A stretch of 64,000 bases of DNA from Streptococcus oralis (lineage in GTDB: Bacteria; Bacillota; Bacilli; Lactobacillales; Streptococcaceae), in contig NZ_CP029257.1 in the NCBI RefSeq assembly GCF_024399415.1, positions 1,201,501 through 1,265,500 of the forward strand, in the 5' to 3' direction. Both the position numbers and the translations under genes were made by a program. This document shows positions 3,429 to 51,391 of the stretch, piece after piece. Numbering within the stretch: the first letter of the stretch is position 1; every line of letters starts with the position of its first letter. The notes below the pieces were generated by a model. That model was not told where the DNA came from, searched no databases, and was given only the letters and a program-made list of their open reading frames with translations.

Positions 3429-5975
3429 TTAAGCCTTGCCATATTGGGCTACAACAGCTTCGACTGCTGCTTTCTCACGCTTAATCAAGTCAACACGCGC
3501 TGCGATATCCTTGATCCCCATGCGGATATTACGGCTAAGAGCTAGGTCAGAAAGTTGCGGTTCAAAGAATTCCTTATACTCAGCCAAGCGTTCTTCTGTT
3601 TTAAAGATGTGTGATGGGAAGATGACAAAGCTATCAAAGCTCATATCCCCACCAAGAGCTGCCTTGATCCAATCCCAGTTTTCACGCGCCCATACCCAAA
3701 CAGTTTCTTGAGTTGTTTGGTGTCCGAGGAATTGGAGGTACCATGAAGAAAGGTCTTGTGGTTTCACCACAAATTTGTCCTTCCATGAACGAATCAAGGT
3801 TTGGATATTGTCAGCATCTGTACTGTAGGCTAGAGCAGCTGCCAACTGGCGTTTGAAGACCGCATCCGTCGCATGAGTGTAGAGGTCCAGATAAGTTGCG
3901 ACCAAGTCCTTGGTCTCATAGTGTTTCATTTCATTGATAAGAACTTGTGCACGGATGGCTGCTGGAAGTCCTGCAAGGTTCTCCTTGTGAGCTGCAAAGA
4001 TTTGGCTAGCGACTTGACTAGCTTCTGCATCATTGGAGCGAATCATCATAGAAACGGCCAACTGACGAACCAATTCATCCTCATCTGATTCTCCGTCTTT
4101 GGCTTCAAAACCAAGACGGTCATAGTTATGACGAGCTAATTTAGCAACGAGTGTATTAAAGGCTTTCTCAGTCTCTGTTCCTTCATCGATAAAGCGCTCA
4201 AGGGCAGAAATCACTTGAGAAACAGCTGAAACCACAAGGTAAGACTCTTCCTTAGCAAGTTTATCAAGGACTGGGAGCAAGTCTGCATAAGAAATGTGCC
4301 CTGCTTCAGCCAACAAACGACGTTCTTGAACGATTTGCAGTTTGCTTGTGTTATCAAGTGTCTCTAACTCAGCAAGAACAGCTTCTAACAAGTCTCCTTG
4401 ATAGTCGGTAATATAGTGGGCAGTATTTTCAGTGTTGAGACGAAGAGCTCCTTCATTTTCAGCAAGAAGAGCGGCGTAGCCAGGAATTTCGATACTTTCA
4501 GTTTCAAGTGTATCTGGCAAGCCCTTCCAGTTGCTGTTCAGTGGTACAACCCAGAGACGGTTCTTGTCTTCGTGCTCACCGATAAAGAATTGTTTTTGTG
4601 AAATCTTCAAGACATCATTTTCAACTTTGACAGTGAGAACTGGATAACCAGGTTGCTCCAACCAAGAATCCATGAAAGCTGCAACATCTCGTCCTGATGC
4701 CTGACCAAGGGCATTCCAAAGGTCACGACCAATGGTGTTGCTGTACTGGTGCTTTTCAAAGTAAGCATGCAAGCCTTTAGCGAAATCAGCATCACCGAGC
4801 CAACGGCGAAGCATATGCATGAGACGGCTTCCTTTAGCATAGACGATAGCTCCATCAAAGAGGGTATTGATTTCGTCTGGGTGTTTAACTTCAACGTGAA
4901 CAGACTGAACGCCATCCGTCGCATCGCGTTTAAGCGCCGCTGGAACACCGCCTGTTTGGAAGTCTTCAAAGATATTCCAACTTGGCTCGATGGCATCCAC
5001 ACAGACGTATTCCATCATGTTAGCGAAGCTTTCATTAAGCCAAAGGTCATCCCACCATTTCATAGTCACGAGGTTCCCAAACCATTGGTGGGCCAACTCA
5101 TGTGCTACAACTAGGGCAACTTGTTGACGGCTAGCAAAGGTTGAGTTCTCATCTACAACCAAGTAAACTTCACGGTAGGTCACAAGACCCCAGTTTTCCA
5201 TAGCACCAGCTGAGAAGTCAGGCAGGGCGATGTGAAGTGATTGAGGAATTGGGTACTTAACTCCATAGTAATCTTCGTAAAACTCGATTGAGCGAACAGC
5301 GATGTCTAATGAGAAATCAAGGTTAGATAGTGGATGGGCTTTGGTTGAGTAAACACCTACGAGGGTACCGTTTTTAGTTTTAGCCGTTACCCCTTGCAAA
5401 TCACCTGCAACAAAAGCTAATAAGTAAGAAGACATGCGAGGTGTTGTCGCAAACTTCCAGATGCCTGATTCCTTGCGTTTTTCCACATCAATTTCTGGCA
5501 TGTTTGACAAGGCCACTTCACCTTCTGCCTGGTCAAAACGAAGGGCGAGGTCAAAAGTAGCCTTGGCTTCAGGCTCATCCACACATGGGAAGGCTTCACG
5601 CGCAAAATGGCTTTCAAACTGAGTAGACAAGACTTCCTTCTTGATACCATCAACTGTGTAGTAAGAAGGGTAAATCCCTGTCATATTGTCTGTGATTTTT
5701 CCTAAAAAGGCGATGACCAATTCAACTTGACCAGCCTCAGCCAATTCGATATGAAGGGCTTCATTGTCATGGTCAACTGTAAATGGACGAGCTTGACCTG
5801 CAACTTCTACAGAAGCGATTTCCAAGTCTTTTTGGTGGAGGGAAATACGGTCACTCTGCGCTTGACCAGTGATGGTCACCTTCCCAGAAAAGGTCTTGGT
5901 CTCACGACTCAAGTCTAAAAATAAATCATAGTGTTCAGGAACAAATTGGGTAATAAAATGTTCAACAGCTTGCAT
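3429..5975 (-). CDS. pepN: Aminopeptidase N, M1 family
   Basis: This 848-residue cytoplasmic zinc metallopeptidase removes N-terminal residues, preferring lysine and other basic or hydrophobic ones, in peptide nutrition. The exopeptidase signature GAMEN is at residues 257-261. The zinc site HELAH is at 292-296, with the third ligand E315 in the LNES segment. The rest is a beta-saddle N-terminal domain and a helical C-terminal domain of ERAP type. Length is normal for lactic acid bacteria PepN. A TAGGAGAAAACT ribosome-binding site fixes the start. The gene sits alone between its own terminator and the ASCH operon. Confidence 0.97.
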   Translation of the reverse strand: MQAVEHFITQFVPEHYDLFLDLSRETKTFSGKVTITGQAQSDRISLHQKDLEIASVEVAGQARPFTVDHDNEALHIELAEAGQVELVIAFLGKITDNMTGIYPSYYTVDGIKKEVLSTQFESHFAREAFPCVDEPEAKATFDLALRFDQAEGEVALSNMPEIDVEKRKESGIWKFATTPRMSSYLLAFVAGDLQGVTAKTKNGTLVGVYSTKAHPLSNLDFSLDIAVRSIEFYEDYYGVKYPIPQSLHIALPDFSAGAMENWGLVTYREVYLVVDENSTFASRQQVALVVAHELAHQWFGNLVTMKWWDDLWLNESFANMMEYVCVDAIEPSWNIFEDFQTGGVPAALKRDATDGVQSVHVEVKHPDEINTLFDGAIVYAKGSRLMHMLRRWLGDADFAKGLHAYFEKHQYSNTIGRDLWNALGQASGRDVAAFMDSWLEQPGYPVLTVKVENDVLKISQKQFFIGEHEDKNRLWVVPLNSNWKGLPDTLETESIEIPGYAALLAENEGALRLNTENTAHYITDYQGDLLEAVLAELETLDNTSKLQIVQERRLLAEAGHISYADLLPVLDKLAKEESYLVVSAVSQVISALERFIDEGTETEKAFNTLVAKLARHNYDRLGFEAKDGESDEDELVRQLAVSMMIRSNDAEASQVASQIFAAHKENLAGLPAAIRAQVLINEMKHYETKDLVATYLDLYTHATDAVFKRQLAAALAYSTDADNIQTLIRSWKDKFVVKPQDLSSWYLQFLGHQTTQETVWVWARENWDWIKAALGGDMSFDSFVIFPSHIFKTEERLAEYKEFFEPQLSDLALSRNIRMGIKDIAARVDLIKREKAAVEAVVAQYGKA

Positions 5976-6095
5976 AGTTTTCTCCTATTCTAAGTTTAAG
6001 AGTTTTACTCTTCTTCAAACAAACTTATTATATCATGTTTTGCTTTAGAAAAAAGGATTGGACGGTAATTTCCAAAACTTTCTTCCTTCTACAGT

Positions 6096-6536
6096 CTACA
6101 GTGGGTAGACCTTGCGAAATTCTTCTAGAACGACCTTGCTGTCAGGTGTAAAAGTCAGTCCTGCCTCTCTCAGCCACTCGGTGAAACAGTCTTCATGGAC
6201 CTGGCGCCAATAGTCCAAAGATTTATCCCCCTCACCTTCATTGTAGGCATGGTCAGCAGAAACTTGATGAAAAGTCTGAACGGAAACCTTGGTAATTTCG
6301 ACAATGCAGACAGCCTGATTTTGACTGTCTAAAATGACATCGAAGGTACCTTCTCGCGGAAGAGGTTCGTCCTCTATTGCGTAGAGGTCGTAGGCTGAGG
6401 CGGTTGCTGTCTTTTCGCCTTTTAAAACCAAATCTGCCAAGAGATCGGCTTCCACTCCAAAAGCCCAGGCATCTATCTCATCTCCAATCGAGGGGTTAAT
6501 TTGCTTATACGCATTCCACATTTCTTGCGGTGTCAT
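6096..6536 (-). CDS. ASCH domain protein
   Basis: This 146-residue protein has an ASCH (PUA-like) fold: the GEKTATAS segment at about residues 39-46, the PREGTFDVILD strand region and the VCIVEITKV strand are typical. ASCH proteins are thought to bind RNA or modified nucleotides, and some cleave nucleoside derivatives. The substrate of this one is unknown. The ATG overlaps the stop codon of the upstream PEP-utilising gene (ATGA), with an AAAGGAGC site inside that gene. It is therefore the last gene of the small operon running from DUF2829 through the dehydrogenase, Nudix and PEP-domain genes. Confidence 0.85.
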   Translation of the reverse strand: MTPQEMWNAYKQINPSIGDEIDAWAFGVEADLLADLVLKGEKTATASAYDLYAIEDEPLPREGTFDVILDSQNQAVCIVEITKVSVQTFHQVSADHAYNEGEGDKSLDYWRQVHEDCFTEWLREAGLTFTPDSKVVLEEFRKVYPL

Positions 6537-7384
6537 GGGTTGCTCCTTTGTAATTTTTTACTTACTTCTTTTACACGTTTGAGGTGGTCTGGATAATCAA
6601 TCTCTAAATCAAAAATCTCTGGGATAGAACTGTAGTGGATAATACACTTGATACCCATCTGATTCATTTTTTGTATGAAAGAAGCATTCAGATAGCCTGC
6701 TACAGCAAAGTCAATCTTTTTTATCCTTGCTTTATCCTGCATATCTCTTAGCATATCTAACATTATTGGACTTTCCATATCATGCCATTGACTGTTTCTC
6801 ACAGTCGCAAAAACAAAAGAAGTCAAATCATTCATTCCAACTATAATCTTTGAAATACCCGTTTCCAGTATCCTGTCCAAGTCAAAATAAGCTGACGGCA
6901 ATTCAATCATTGTGCCGACTTTTCCAGTAAAACCATGCTCACGCAATACTCTAATAGCTTGCTTTAACTGCTCAGAATTATTGACAAAAGGAAAAATAAC
7001 AGACAGATTGGGATTTGTTTGATAAACTTCTGTAACGACATGTGCCTCAGCCTGAAATTCATTCGGACACGCCAGCAAACGCCTTATCCCTCTATATCCA
7101 AACAAGGGATGATTTTCATCAAAATGCTCTTTAGTCCCCTCTAAACAATTAGCTTCTGTATTTGTTAACTCTGAAAAACGATACCAAACCTCTTCATCTG
7201 AGTACAAGGAGCAAATGGTATCTAGATAATCTTTTACAAATTGCTGACAACTTACTAATAGGATGTTTTGATTAAGCTCTCTAAGTAATTATTCTCCACG
7301 AATCATACCGACGTGGTGCAATAACTGAGGATAAACTTTTTCAACAATTTGTTCTCCACTAAGGACAAGTTGATTTTTCATCAT
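6533..7384 (-). pseudogene. PEP-utilising enzyme C-terminal (TIM-barrel) protein, interrupted by an in-frame TAA
   Basis: From ATG 7384 the frame encodes 32 residues ending MIRGE, then a TAA at 7289-7291. It then continues in the same frame with no other stop to 6533. Read through, the product is about 283 residues and resembles the C-terminal PEP-binding barrel of PEP synthase/PPDK. The arginine-x-glutamate motif (MIRGE) lies immediately before the stop, with GYRGIRR and the GTMIELPSA active-site strand after it. A TTG at 7207 could restart a 224-residue fragment, but that fragment would lack the first PEP-binding motif. The simplest reading is a recent nonsense change (TAT or TAC to TAA would restore GEYLL) or a sequencing error. 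The gene overlaps the Nudix gene by 26 bases. Standalone barrels of this type have no defined role. Confidence 0.8.
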
Positions 7385-46616: not shown

Positions 46617-46635
46617 TGCCCCCTGCAGGAATCGA
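46617..46635. repeat. Left att-like copy of the tRNA-Arg 3' end
   Basis: Nineteen bases (TGCCCCCTGCAGGAATCGA) identical to the tRNA 3' end at 51320-51338. Identity stops abruptly on both sides. Confidence 0.85.
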
Positions 46636-46694: not shown

Positions 46695-46790
46695 CTCGAG
46701 CTTAGCTTTTCTTCAACCCACTACAGTTGACAAAGAGCCCTTTATTCTATATTCATTGAGTGAAAATTATTCCTGAGTATTTATCATACA

Positions 46791-46961
46791 CTATCTACAC
46801 TTTTTACACCACGACTGCACTCTAATAGTACCACCACCCATATTTCTATAACCAAAATTACTTAACGGTTTCTCAATTCCACAATTTGGACATATCCTAG
46901 TCGGTTCACTTCCATTATAACCACTAGATTGAATAATAACTTCTTGATCATTTCCAAACAT
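46791..46961 (-). CDS. Small zinc-ribbon protein of the restriction-modification unit
   Basis: This 56-residue ORF starts at ATG 46961, nine bases after AAGGAGC. It contains CPNCG at residues 24-28 and CKKC at 52-55, spaced by about 25 residues with an aromatic/glycine-rich middle (NFGYRNMGGG). This is a four-cysteine zinc ribbon, like the N-terminal part of some HNH nucleases, but with no HNH residues after it. It follows the restriction gene by 18 bases on the same strand. It may be a controller, a DNA-binding accessory, or the remnant of an HNH protein. Confidence 0.7.
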   Translation of the reverse strand: MFGNDQEVIIQSSGYNGSEPTRICPNCGIEKPLSNFGYRNMGGGTIRVQSWCKKCR

Positions 46962-46979
46962 AATCAACGCTCCTTATTT

Positions 46980-48290
46980 TTATATATTTACTAAATTAAA
47001 AATCCAGTTTAGCCAACTTATAACAGAAGTCGCTCTCCTTGAAGCTACATCTATACTACATACATTATATTCCAATTCAAGTTCAACTACTCTACCTTTA
47101 TCTGGGATCATACCTGTTTCTATAATTTCTCTAAATAATTCTCTAAAAATTCTATGAGATAAAATTAACTTGACTAATTCTAACTGTCTTTCTTTATAAC
47201 TCTTTTTATAAACAGCCACACCAACATTAGTCAAGCCGTATTTTGTAACTTTATCTTCTTTTATTCTTTGAAATAGACCTAAATATTTACCAGCATTAAA
47301 ATAATATTCTTTTTGGCGAATTGTAAACTTCATCAATTCAATAATTTCTTCACTTGTCATTGGATTGTCATACATATTTTCTAACAAAGAAACTATTCTT
47401 TCAAAGTTATCAGCCTGTATAAATGGAACACTACTTTCACCATTCATATTATCACTAATAACTTCAATATCCTCAATGCTATCATAGACATCTTTTATTT
47501 CATCTAACGTAATAGAAGTATCTTCTAAAGAATAGTTTTTAGTTCCAACTAATTCTATTGAAGAATAATTCCCTTTATCTTTAAAACGATACTCCATTAA
47601 ACGAAAAATTTTATTTGTATAAATTGAAAATATCAAACGTATAGGTTTATCAACTTTACTTTCCCAAGTTCTATACGGATAATAAAGTTGACGAATATGA
47701 AAATCCTCATGCAGTACATTTTTTGCCTCTAGGATCACAACCCAATGGTTCGATTCAAAACCACCATCAATTTCTATTTGCGCTCTATCTACATTTACTC
47801 CTAGTTGAATCTGTCCTACTGTATCAACTTTAAAATCAAATTCCCCTGATGACATTCTACCATTAAAAGTTCCATATAAAACATCATCTGAATCCAGTTC
47901 AAGAAAATCTTCTAGTATTCCTGAAATCTGTAATACATTTATGGCATTTGCTTTAGAAGTAATATTATCTACATCAATGGTTTGTAAGTCAGGTAATTCA
48001 ACTGTTGCCATATTTTTTACATGTTCTACTACTTTAGGCAGTTTTTGATACAACAAGAAATCACTTAAAATATACGAACTTCTGCTATCAGGTAGAATAC
48101 TAATCTCATTCTTTTTTAGACTACTTGGCAACTGTTCTGAACTATCCCACTTTGCCATCAATCTAGGTTCTTTTACTTCCTTTATCTGCGAAGCAGAAAT
48201 CTTAAAAAAACCATTATTAGATATTTCTGTTAAAATATCATACTTATCAATTAACACTTGCCAAGCGTCTGAAACGTTTATTTTTCCCAT
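46980..48290 (-). CDS. Type II restriction endonuclease-like protein, PD-(D/E)XK
   Basis: This 436-residue protein has a likely nuclease core around D175 in EIDGGFE and E188-A-K190 in VVILEAKN, the layout of a PD-(D/E)XK active site. A winged-helix-like C-terminal part starts near 310 (NPMTSEEIIELMKFT). It follows the methyltransferase gene by three bases, so it is the partner nuclease of that enzyme. It is not similar in any way I can see to DpnI or DpnII. The recognition sequence is not predictable from the protein. The codons are AT-rich compared with flanking genes. Confidence 0.8.
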   Translation of the reverse strand: MGKINVSDAWQVLIDKYDILTEISNNGFFKISASQIKEVKEPRLMAKWDSSEQLPSSLKKNEISILPDSRSSYILSDFLLYQKLPKVVEHVKNMATVELPDLQTIDVDNITSKANAINVLQISGILEDFLELDSDDVLYGTFNGRMSSGEFDFKVDTVGQIQLGVNVDRAQIEIDGGFESNHWVVILEAKNVLHEDFHIRQLYYPYRTWESKVDKPIRLIFSIYTNKIFRLMEYRFKDKGNYSSIELVGTKNYSLEDTSITLDEIKDVYDSIEDIEVISDNMNGESSVPFIQADNFERIVSLLENMYDNPMTSEEIIELMKFTIRQKEYYFNAGKYLGLFQRIKEDKVTKYGLTNVGVAVYKKSYKERQLELVKLILSHRIFRELFREIIETGMIPDKGRVVELELEYNVCSIDVASRRATSVISWLNWIFNLVNI

Positions 48291-48293
48291 AAC

Positions 48294-49148
48294 CTACTCT
48301 TTTTCGTAATTATAAATTAAAACCTCAGCAATTTCTCCTCTTTTATCTGACTGACTATTTACACTTCGTCTTGCTTGCACAATTTCAATATTAAACACAT
48401 CTTTATCAGCATACAATTCTAAAATTTCAGGAGAATAAGAATTAGATTGTAAAAATTTAACCCCTCTTTTATGGAGTTTTAAACACTCATCTCTAAGTTC
48501 TACTTGTTTGTCATAGTCAAAACCATGTTCTGTATACCCAGTAAAACTAGAAGAAGTTGAAATAGGCATATAAGGGGGATCAAAATAAACAAATGCACCC
48601 CTTCTTAACCTTTTTAACGCTTCTTTATAATCACCAGTTAAAAATTTAACATTCGCTGAATTAAAATAATTTGAAATAGCTTTAATAGTCACTTCATTCA
48701 CAATAGAAGGATTCTTATACTTTCCATAAGGTGTATTAAAGAAACCTGCTCTATTAACTCTAAACAAACCATTATAACAAGTTTTATTTAAATAAATAAT
48801 TCGTCCAGCTTTTTCTACATTTGAAAATTTTTCATAATCCTCACTACGATCTAAAGAGCGAATTTCATAAAAATATTCTTCAGAGTGTAATTCTTTATGC
48901 CTTTTTAAAACATCTATTAAACCATCAGGATCATCTTTTATCACCTGATAAACATTCATCAATTCTTGATTGTAATCATTGATAATTGCCTTCTTTGGTT
49001 GTTGATGAAACAATACTGCACCCCCACCAACAAAAGGCTCAACATAAGTAGAAATCCTTCTAGGAATTAAAGGTTCAATTTCTGAAATTAGTTGTCGTTT
49101 TCCACCTACCCATTTAAGAACAGGTGCAACAAGTATATTTTTCTTCAT
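48294..49148 (-). CDS. D12-class adenine-N6 DNA methyltransferase
   Basis: This 284-residue enzyme has the Dam/DpnM architecture: KWVGGKRQL (SAM loop region) at residues 12-20, the VEPFVGGGAVLF motif I near 36-47, and catalytic DPPY at 190-193. Methylation protects host DNA from the adjacent nuclease. Dam-type enzymes often recognise GATC, but class members also recognise other sites such as GATATC, so the target stays open. Its own promoter must lie in the 144-base gap after the DGQHR terminator. Confidence 0.92.
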   Translation of the reverse strand: MKKNILVAPVLKWVGGKRQLISEIEPLIPRRISTYVEPFVGGGAVLFHQQPKKAIINDYNQELMNVYQVIKDDPDGLIDVLKRHKELHSEEYFYEIRSLDRSEDYEKFSNVEKAGRIIYLNKTCYNGLFRVNRAGFFNTPYGKYKNPSIVNEVTIKAISNYFNSANVKFLTGDYKEALKRLRRGAFVYFDPPYMPISTSSSFTGYTEHGFDYDKQVELRDECLKLHKRGVKFLQSNSYSPEILELYADKDVFNIEIVQARRSVNSQSDKRGEIAEVLIYNYEKE

Positions 49149-49244
49149 TTTTTTATATGACCTCGTATCTTTTAATTATATCATATTTCACTTAAATCTT
49201 TCATTCAGCGAACTCTAAAAATGCTGAAAAAACTAAAGTAACAA

Positions 49245-49284
49245 ATACAAAACAAAATAGACCAGCTTCCTGATCCATTTTATT
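49245..49284. terminator. Hairpin terminator after the DGQHR gene, repeated at 51123
   Basis: AAAATAGACCAG-CTTC-CTGATCCATTTT is an imperfect hairpin with A- and T-rich flanks, just after the DGQHR stop. The same 40-base unit occurs at 51123-51162 with two mismatches, so it flanks the two-gene cassette. Confidence 0.7.
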
Positions 49285-49292
49285 TATCTATT

Positions 49293-50366
49293 TTAAAATT
49301 CTGAGTTTGAAATTTGCATGAGTGCATCCTCAAACTCACCTTTCAAACGATTTTGGCCTACTCCACCAGCTTGAAATTCTTCAGAAATAAGTTGAATATG
49401 TTTACGTTCAAAAATATCTTTTATCTTCTTAAAAATGTTTACAAAAAACTCCTCATCTAATCTTCCTTGTTCCATACCAAAATTATAAAATTTTTCAAAA
49501 GCCTTGATTAACGCTAAATATCCAGTTGTTTTGGTCAAAATATAGTCATTTGAATACCACTCTTTTTCAAAAACTACACTCACAGCAGTAAAATAATTTT
49601 TAAGGATTTTCAAAATTATATCATCATTCTCATTTATAAAGAAATTTCGTAGTGGTAATTTCTCATCTGGCAATAATTTATCGCCATTTTTTATACGAAT
49701 CATATCTTCCTGAGGATTTTTTGAAATTAGTTCAACTAATCCTTTTACAAAAGTCCCTTGAGATAAAGTGTTTGATCCGCGTTCTCTTTTACCTAACATC
49801 TTCAACCTCTGATAAAAAGGATATGTGTGTTTTGAATTCATAATTCTAGCTATATAGTGACAAGTTTTTAATGGACTTCTTTTTGTACTCAGTTCAAATA
49901 AATCATAGATTAAAGATTTATCAACTTTTGCTTGATTACTATTTATTGTAGAAAATACATATGCTTTCTCCTCTTCAGTTAGATCAAACATTAATACAAC
50001 AAGTAATTCACATCTGAATCCTGAACTACTGCTTGCTCGGCTAATTCCCTCTACTCGATGTTGTCCATCAATTATCTCGAAAATGCAATTGTCATCATTA
50101 TACTCGATAAGAGTACCACCATTCTTCAATTTACAAAATGAAGAATCAACTGATAATATTATTGGTGTAGGGAAAGTAGCATCAGGATCCTTGCAATATG
50201 ATTCGATTTCCATTACCCTTTTATCAGATCTGTCTCTTTGAATTCCTTCATTGTCTCTTCTAGGACGTACATAAGAACCTTTTATCAAATCACTAGAATC
50301 AATTTTTCCAAGGTAAAATGTTCCTATAGGTTGTGTAATTTCTATTACTTTTATTTCTTTTTGCAT
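49293..50366 (-). CDS. DGQHR-domain (DndB-like) protein
   Basis: This 357-residue protein contains the family signature IDGQHRVEG, with DGQHR at residues 100-104. An LLVVLMFDLTEEEKAYVFSTINSNQAKVDKSL segment follows near 119-150, as in DndB/DptB and ParB-like DGQHR proteins. DndB acts as a regulator in phosphorothioation clusters; here there are no dndACDE genes, so that role does not transfer. The rest of the protein is helical. The ATG overlaps the stop of the membrane-protein gene (TAATG), which indicates a dedicated partnership. Function unknown. Confidence 0.85.
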   Translation of the reverse strand: MQKEIKVIEITQPIGTFYLGKIDSSDLIKGSYVRPRRDNEGIQRDRSDKRVMEIESYCKDPDATFPTPIILSVDSSFCKLKNGGTLIEYNDDNCIFEIIDGQHRVEGISRASSSSGFRCELLVVLMFDLTEEEKAYVFSTINSNQAKVDKSLIYDLFELSTKRSPLKTCHYIARIMNSKHTYPFYQRLKMLGKRERGSNTLSQGTFVKGLVELISKNPQEDMIRIKNGDKLLPDEKLPLRNFFINENDDIILKILKNYFTAVSVVFEKEWYSNDYILTKTTGYLALIKAFEKFYNFGMEQGRLDEEFFVNIFKKIKDIFERKHIQLISEEFQAGGVGQNRLKGEFEDALMQISNSEF

Positions 50367-50974
50367 TATACACTCACATCCTTCCCTGTATCATCCTTAA
50401 AGCTTTTAATTTCTTCATTATTCTTATCTAATTTTTCCATTTCTTTATTTTCCATTTCCAAATAATCTTCAAAATTTTGAGGGTATTGTATAAGTCTATT
50501 TAAACAATAATAAAAGAAAGTACCATATATTGAAATTACAGCAATCAAAATTTGAATCCAATAATCAGTTCTGTATATACCTGAATATAACAGTAAAGAT
50601 GTAATAAGCATTACAAATATAAAAACTATTATAACATAAAGATAACTAGTTATTGATGTCTTGCCTATAACAGGTAACAATTTATCATTTTCAATATTTG
50701 TTTCACTCAGTTTTCTATTTGCCTCTGATTTCTTCTCTTCTGATAACAGATATATAATTGCATCAGAAAGAACTGTAATTAACAATGTAATCGAAAAAAT
50801 ATAGATATTTCCTTGTTTAAATGAATCCTCAATAGTTTCTCCACGCAATAATTGTGAAAAATTTGTAAAAAAACCTGCTAATAGAGTAGTTACAATCCAA
50901 AGCAGTACAATTCTATCTTTTTTTAAAATTTTAAAAGGAAATAGAAAAAAATTATTTTGCTTCTTTTCATTCAT
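50366..50974 (-). CDS. Four-helix membrane protein, partner of the DGQHR protein
   Basis: This 202-residue protein has four predicted transmembrane helices at about residues 22-39, 54-75, 107-129 and 134-155. A charged cytoplasmic loop of about 30 residues lies between helices 2 and 3, and a 45-residue acidic C-terminal tail (NKEMEKLDKNNEEIKSFKDD) follows. I recognise no family. It is the first gene of a two-gene unit with the DGQHR protein, one base overlapping. Small multi-helix membrane proteins in such pairs are often effectors in phage defence; that is inference only. Confidence 0.75.
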   Translation of the reverse strand: MNEKKQNNFFLFPFKILKKDRIVLLWIVTTLLAGFFTNFSQLLRGETIEDSFKQGNIYIFSITLLITVLSDAIIYLLSEEKKSEANRKLSETNIENDKLLPVIGKTSITSYLYVIIVFIFVMLITSLLLYSGIYRTDYWIQILIAVISIYGTFFYYCLNRLIQYPQNFEDYLEMENKEMEKLDKNNEEIKSFKDDTGKDVSV

Positions 50975-51319
50975 AATTAATCTTTCTCCCTAACTAAATT
51001 TAATACTACATAGTTTATTAAAATTCTACACTTAATCAATATTTATATTAGCTACTATTATAGCAAAAAATGTAGAAACTTTAAAGAATAATATTATTAT
51101 ATTTTTAAAGACTAAATATAGAATACAAAATAAAATAGACCAGCTTCCTGATCCACTTTATTCTATATTTATTAAGTGAAAAATATTTTTGGTCAAATTT
51201 TGGTCATGGTTTGGTCAAAAAAACTCAAAATACTAACCTATTTAAAAAAACAAAATTGTGATGATTGCCTTTAAACTAACACTTTGAATATTCTTTATTC
51301 TTCTTTACTTTACTAAAAA
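50975..51319. other. Right arm of the island: promoter region, repeat, possible integrase remnant
   Basis: This 345-base AT-rich stretch has no complete gene. It includes the likely promoter region of the membrane/DGQHR unit, the second terminator-like repeat (51123-51162), and a segment at 51158-51186 that resembles 46739-46767 near the left end. An open frame on the plus strand (51139-51261) encodes LSEKYFWSNFGHGLVKK, which looks like the tail of a phage integrase. TTTGGTCA occurs three times in a row at about 51187-51217, resembling integrase arm sites. Confidence 0.55.
51123..51162. repeat. Second copy of the 40-base hairpin repeat
   Basis: Matches 49245-49284 at 38 of 40 positions, with weaker similarity extending some 20 bases further left. 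Together the copies bracket the membrane/DGQHR gene pair. Confidence 0.8.
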
Positions 51320-51338
51320 TGCCCCCTGCAGGAATCGA
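51320..51338. repeat. Right att-like copy (3' end of tRNA-Arg)
   Basis: Part of the intact tRNA gene and identical to 46617-46635. Confidence 0.85.
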
Positions 51339-51391
51339 ACCTGCAACTACTCCTTAGGAGGGAGTTGTTATATCCATTGAACTAAGGGAGC
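51320..51391 (-). tRNA. tRNA-Arg(CCU)
   Basis: This 72-base gene folds into a full cloverleaf: acceptor GCTCCCT/AGGGGGC, anticodon stem ACTCC/GGAGT with loop CTCCTAA (anticodon CCT, reading AGG), and T arm GCAGG-TTCGATT-CCTGC. CCA is not encoded. It lies just downstream of rplS, and its 3' end is the integration site of the island. Confidence 0.96.

Follow-up and report, generated by a model that had tools for sequence, protein, structure and literature searches.

Several described systems resemble parts of a two-gene locus found in a 64,000-nucleotide stretch of Streptococcus oralis DNA (contig NZ_CP029257.1, positions 1,201,501 to 1,265,500; hereafter the window). The locus encodes a small membrane protein and a DGQHR-domain protein, and the pair is likely to be an undescribed two-part defence unit. 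Noc, a ParB protein with a CTP switch, links DNA to the membrane via an amphipathic helix. Among DGQHR proteins, DndB has been studied best; it represses transcription by binding to promoters (PMC4507180), in an ATP-dependent manner (PMC10853773). A DGQHR-domain protein co-occurs with genomic phosphorothioation in 7 of 7 cases (PMC3226654). In Kiwa, membrane tetramers of KwaA hold KwaB dimers, which bind injected DNA (PMC12904381). Kiwa is present in Streptococcus thermophilus (PMC11514479). In the literature found, DGQHR proteins are chiefly described either as regulators of the DndB type or as relatives of GmrS, and a literature search (covering few subscription papers and no preprints or supplements) yielded no description of a membrane partner of these proteins; in PMC10853773, the word "transmembrane" occurs once, in a reference title.

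The two open reading frames (ORFs) of the pair overlap by a single base in the window, as stated in a preliminary description of this DNA, which had set recurrence of the pair in other genomes as a test beforehand. A DGQHR profile built from 38 sequences was used to select 43 genome loci, the membrane gene playing no part in the selection, and six plasmid or phage records were added to give 49 loci. At 47 of these, the start of the DGQHR gene coincides with the end of an ORF on the same strand that encodes two or more hydrophobic helices, compared to 24 of the 272 remaining genes in these loci (7 of 401 in a stricter count of background pairs). The exceptions are L014, which is cut by a contig end, and the phage record L109. 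The genes therefore recur as a unit. A search of 33 whole genomes with a profile of the membrane family (A2) gave a match in 29. The main match in each of the 29 adjoins a DGQHR gene, but 26 of these partners are themselves rows of A2, such that the match is largely by construction and the new points are L003, L014 and L030. The genomes of L022, L031, L033 and L035 had no A2 match (that of L026 is not among the 33). The remaining A2 matches in the 33 genomes are limited to a weak, stop-containing one (G303) and the second piece of a broken gene at L003; no convincing copy of the membrane family away from a DGQHR gene was found with this profile. The identities of the two proteins correlate with each other (r = 0.79 for 26 loci and the window, seven of the 33 loci being left out; 0 of 2000 permutations as high), a relationship to which shared host ancestry contributes.

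The pair is present in several bacterial phyla, including Bacillota, Bacteroidota and Pseudomonadota. In a sample of 398 Bacillota genomes, the DGQHR subfamily is strong in at least two (with five further weak matches) and the membrane family in at least one (with two further weak matches). The second genome with a strong DGQHR match is that of L022; there the partner, a different protein with two helices, has a tail of the same kind. Within the genus, DGQHR matches were found in 8 of 284 genomes: the genome of the window itself and seven with distant or partial matches (27-39% identity). Viral contigs gave at least 11 matches (23-30% identity, except for a 63-residue piece at 35%), phage records gave two (25.5% identity; in the one examined, no membrane partner precedes the gene) and plasmids gave 25 records (best identity 36%; five opened). 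Divergent DGQHR genes that are accompanied by Dnd/Pbe genes (L036-L044 and L107) likewise have a multi-helix partner (three to five predicted helices) directly upstream, but these partners lie outside the membrane family cluster and have other tails, and the DGQHR proteins show only 28-35% identity. L107 is an E. coli record, judged by reading to be a Dnd/Pbe-like cluster, in which a four-helix gene is accompanied by a DGQHR gene (5467-7146 for the two), the latter being interrupted in that record. In three Acinetobacter species (L010, L011 and L034), the pair occupies one and the same place, next to a gene of the valyl-tRNA synthetase type, and no defence genes were recognised among the neighbour clusters of these three loci.

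The membrane protein (202 amino acids [aa]) has four hydrophobic helices based on an AlphaFold model and a partition by eye, in agreement with the preliminary description. Its N and C termini are predicted to be cytoplasmic, with positive charge in the N terminus and loop 2. A glutamine is the sole invariant column in the family alignment A2 (40 rows). The C-terminal tail is conserved: the partners at L002-L034 end in L, I, V or F in 33 of 33 cases, compared to 14 of 55 for the upstream gene in other overlapping pairs (p = 2e-13), and a frequent form of the tail is D-x-K-G-x-K-L. Among the 97 matches listed, 85 of the 90 members shorter than 250 aa (window row included) end in L, V or I, although at least two of the 85 (P0014 and P0214) seem to be truncated ahead of the tail and the remaining five members are mostly fragment-like. 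The L022 and L026 partners are outside the membrane family cluster and retain the tail. The ribosome-binding site of the next gene overlaps the tail codons, which may favour the glycine and, to a lesser degree, the terminal residue or the aspartate. Comparison of the membrane model with solved structures (Foldseek) gave no match at an E-value of 0.001 or better, and a looser listing contained mostly helical bundles. LMBD1 (sequence profile, E-value: 0.0011) and the mechanosensitive channel YnaI (E-value: ~0.2) were judged to be composition noise.

The DGQHR protein matches both TIGR03187 (E-value: 2e-45; 155.7 bits, cut-off 58.85) and PF14072 (DndB; E-value: 4.4e-10; 39.6 bits, cut-off 29.1). 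The E-value for TIGR04172, the DGQHR_dnd_1 equivalog, is 2.4e-60, but the score of 204.5 bits is under the cut-off of 450. On these matches the protein can be classified in the DndB superfamily (PF14072/TIGR03187), which bears out the domain named in the preliminary description, and not in the TIGR04172 equivalog. The QR pair, DGQHR and FxxxN motifs, given as family motifs of DGQHR proteins in PMC4619093, are all invariant in alignment A1. The N-terminal domain has a predicted ParB/Srx fold. In a profile alignment, the DGQHR motif is placed over the GERR box of ParB, although the profile comparison with ParB is not significant, and the DGQHR profile matched none of the solved chains up to an E-value of 1. 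DpdB is the only PADLOC family that matches the protein below an E-value of 0.001, and no match to a nuclease domain was found in it. Its nearest species-named relative is from Streptococcus infantis (85% identity).

Like the DndB/DGQHR family of phosphorothioation systems, the pair thus has the domain over cut-off and the three motifs. Unlike that family, it has a dedicated membrane partner, a TIGR04172 score far under cut-off and no DndD over cut-off in its own genome (best 21.3 bits, cut-off 245.85). The preliminary description reported that dnd partners are lacking; this stands for DndD, whereas the DndE search of the genome gave no matches with controls that were equally silent, and DndC was not searched for. 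Its linking of DGQHR proteins to dnd clusters was too narrow, as Dnd/Pbe-type genes cluster at only L022, L026 and L031 among the 33 subfamily loci (L002-L034). Kiwa, like the pair, combines a small membrane protein with a DNA-acting protein in two genes, the latter activity being predicted for the DGQHR protein. It differs from the pair in that the DGQHR protein has a predicted ParB-type fold, and no Kwa models appeared among the PADLOC matches of the pair (up to an E-value of 1) or of the 40 membrane rows (up to 0.1), in searches with HMMER filters that drop weak matches and a library that we take to include Kwa models. The Noc/ParB CTPases share with the DGQHR protein the predicted fold of the N-terminal domain and the non-significant GERR-box correspondence, but the pair would contact the membrane via a separate protein. 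In contrast to GmrS/BrxU and SspE, which are nucleotide-switched restriction enzymes with a ParB/Srx fold, the window protein is without a nuclease match and has a membrane partner. The pair is set apart from Kiwa and Dnd and is classed here as a putative membrane-associated DNA defence unit.

The genes next to the pair support the defence setting proposed in the preliminary description, as judged from their annotation. A modification or defence gene was recognised within the stretch examined at 15 of the 33 loci L002-L034 (hand-picked annotations with no control count). Among the neighbour protein clusters, a Dam-type methylase is found at six genome loci in addition to the window, and DpnII-type enzymes are found at four loci. 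Two of the five plasmid records encode BglII/BstYI enzymes beside the pair, two encode a Dam-type or DNA adenine methylase and one, from Rhizobium, has dndD nearby. In the proximal set (140 of 144 proteins; two of the four left out are defence-like and two are not), the largest families include D12 methylase (4), N6/N4 methylase (4), DpnII (3), PAPS reductase (3), DndE (2) and FRG (2), none of these six having two or more members among 107 distal proteins. Epimerases, integrases and tRNA synthetases are also among the largest families. Further neighbours include AbiH, SIR2, a cyclase with PycTM, ABC-3C, a Schlafen-type domain and DUF4062 (singly annotated proteins, comprising 29 neighbours and two partners, were hand-picked). 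At L021 (9079-10330), a cyclase-domain protein followed by a PycTM protein is encoded directly downstream of the DGQHR pair and forms a Pycsar-like pair. A gene set encoding a 670-680 aa protein, an HSP90-like ATPase, an SNF2 helicase and a protein with weak PD-Lambda-5_A matches is found next to the pair at L007 (963-7429), L030 (9091-13087 and beyond), L022 (3827-7365) and L005 (5298-7304). The gene order is permuted between these loci and not every member is present in each. The 670-680 aa protein (51% identity between L007 and L022) has a radical-SAM-like cysteine motif by reading and no Pfam match. Together, these genes may constitute a DNA-modification or defence system that is as yet uncharacterised.

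The features of the locus in the window are listed in Table 1.

Table 1. Positions of the gene pair, its parts and its surroundings in the window.
Feature	Position	Strand	Basis
Membrane protein gene	50366..50974	minus	ORF list
Conserved tail at the C terminus of the membrane protein (last eight residues), likely docking peptide	50369..50392	minus	Alignment and end-residue counts
TAATG junction (stop/start codons, one-base overlap at 50366)	50364..50368	minus	DNA letters
DGQHR (DndB-superfamily) protein gene, 357 aa	49293..50366	minus	ORF list and domain matches
N-terminal domain, residues 17-147, predicted ParB/Srx fold	49926..50318	minus	Fold comparison
DGQHR motif, residues 100-104, invariant in 38 aligned sequences	50055..50069	minus	Alignment A1
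Upstream hairpin copy, terminator-like	51122..51162	minus	Repeat search and folding
Downstream hairpin copy, terminator-like	49244..49284	minus	Repeat search and folding
tRNA-Arg(CCT), integration site	51320..51391	minus	tRNA search, repeat and empty-site comparison
19-bp direct repeat, copy at tRNA end	51320..51338		Exact repeat
19-bp direct repeat, distal copy (left end of insertion)	46617..46635	.	Exact repeat
Dam-family (D12) adenine methyltransferase, neighbour outside the unit	48294..49148	minus	Domain matches
Type II restriction enzyme (DUF6996/6997/7226), neighbour outside the unit	46980..48290	minus	Domain matches

The hairpin copies that the preliminary description saw on either side of the pair are 41 nt long and 95% identical. 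Both fold far better than shuffled sequences on the minus strand (z = -6.0 and -6.5; 0 of 200 shuffles as good), and the second copy shows no excess folding over shuffles on the plus strand (z = -1.2). Both hairpins fold on the coding strand and have U-rich sequence 3' of the stem. They thus resemble terminators, and the pair appears to be transcribed as a separate unit. For the 171 bases around the right-hand hairpin, own-genome matches are confined to the island. Close to the insertion's left end, a 32-nt repeat (46740-46771) matches 51156-51187 beside the same hairpin (91% identity), hinting at island growth by recombination between element ends.

The tRNA island proposed earlier was recovered as an insertion of ~4.7 kb in tRNA-Arg(CCT), which lies between the 19-bp repeats and contains the pair, the Dam-family methylase and the type II restriction enzyme. 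The empty site is found in genome G104 of the same genus (L083), where the two flank matches overlap by 21 bases, corresponding to one repeat copy. Four related genomes (L081, L082, L084 and L085) carry different cargo of ~3 to 14 kb at this site, and so tRNA-Arg(CCT) is an integration hotspot. Repeats of the TTTTGGTCA type (51185-51222), which resemble arm sites of tyrosine integrases, adjoin the tRNA; no integrase or replication gene was seen among the ORFs of the insertion. A 58-aa ORF with a TTG start and two CxxC pairs (zinc ribbon-like) is located directly downstream of the restriction enzyme gene (46791-46967). In a search of 279 genomes of the genus, the restriction enzyme was found in two others (71% and 57% protein identity), neither of which has an adjoining DGQHR pair. 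The enzyme shares no cluster with the neighbours at other pair loci, and comparison with solved chains gave nothing convincing for it. The adjacent restriction-modification genes are separable from the pair, a separation for which the preliminary description had suggested looking.

The model that we tentatively propose for the pair is as follows. The two genes form one conserved unit in which the predicted four-helix membrane protein would anchor the DGQHR protein at the inner face of the cell membrane, with the C-terminal tail of the former docking to the latter. The DGQHR protein would bind a nucleoside triphosphate and DNA in the manner of a ParB-type nucleotide switch. Incoming phage or plasmid DNA would be bound and blocked at entry, and infection would be stopped. 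Such a logic would resemble that of Kiwa and Noc. The model builds on the observed gene coupling and its recurrence, on conservation of the membrane family and its tail, on the defence and modification genes nearby and on the predicted topology and fold. Seven longer members of the membrane family and the dnd-type partners end differently, which argues against a universal docking peptide. The distal control has no repeated methylases but contains AAA_21 (4) and TIR_2 (2) proteins, so an island bias of the defence neighbours is possible.

The preliminary description instead compared the pair to abortive-infection systems. The DGQHR protein would sense a nucleotide or DNA signal and activate the membrane protein, such that the membrane is opened or damaged and the cell is stopped. 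This is possible but doubtful. Small membrane proteins are common effectors, the window protein weakly matches the 2TM effector model of CBASS (cyclic oligonucleotide-based antiphage signalling system; E-value: 0.0068), two family members weakly match an RT-SLATT model (best E-value: 0.0016) and a Pycsar-like pair adjoins the unit at L021. However, both of these model matches are at noise level. The pair is not assigned to CBASS, as no cyclase match was found among the four island proteins scanned. The lone invariant glutamine of the membrane family says little about a pore, and the cytoplasmic tail is the part kept by the two partners with a different membrane module, which suits an anchor over a pore. 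The conserved cytoplasmic tail is explained no less well by a membrane anchor for a putative DNA-binding protein of the ParB fold than by the sensor and membrane-effector logic.

Given the role of DndB and the modification genes often found near the pair, the DGQHR protein could alternatively be a DndB-like repressor of neighbouring DNA-modification operons that is held or released by the membrane protein. This explanation is unlikely: the neighbour clusters at several loci (e.g. L010, L011, L029 and L034) are without a modification gene, two terminator-like hairpins part the pair from the restriction-modification genes in the window and related restriction-modification sets occur in the genus without the pair. 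It is very improbable that the pair is a fixed accessory of the adjacent restriction-modification system. The two share one insertion in the window, and genes for DpnII, BglII/BstYI or Dam-family enzymes are repeatedly found next to the pair, but separability largely refutes this explanation: both other genomes with the enzyme have no pair, and other pair loci have Dnd/Pbe, Pycsar-like or housekeeping genes instead of this enzyme. Least probable of all is Noc- or ParB-like positioning or partition of mobile elements at the membrane with no role in defence, which would suit the predicted ParB/Noc fold and the presence of the pair on an insertion and on plasmids, but the window copy is in a chromosomal insertion with no integrase or replication gene seen (a ParA partner was not searched for) and many other copies are on chromosomal contigs.

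The anchoring model could be extended to the target of the DGQHR protein. DpnII cuts GATC, and BglII and BstYI cut GATC-containing sites. In haloarchaea, the Pbe-type phosphorothioate mark is GpsATC (PMC6459918). DGQHR proteins and their partners might constitute a superfamily of membrane-tethered ParB-type switches that guard the state of DNA modification in bacteria, in which the partner's tail holds the DGQHR protein, GATC-type modification is read and unmarked entering DNA is trapped. Reading of modification at such sites would account for the recurrence of Dam methylases, DpnII, BglII/BstYI and Dnd/Pbe phosphorothioation genes, although this extension as a whole is quite unlikely.

If DGQHR proteins do normally have a membrane partner, the family would gain a location and a testable mechanism, and phage defence would gain another membrane-based system of DNA interception. 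With its near-fixed two-gene format and swappable membrane parts that keep the tail, the pair is a compact system to dissect.
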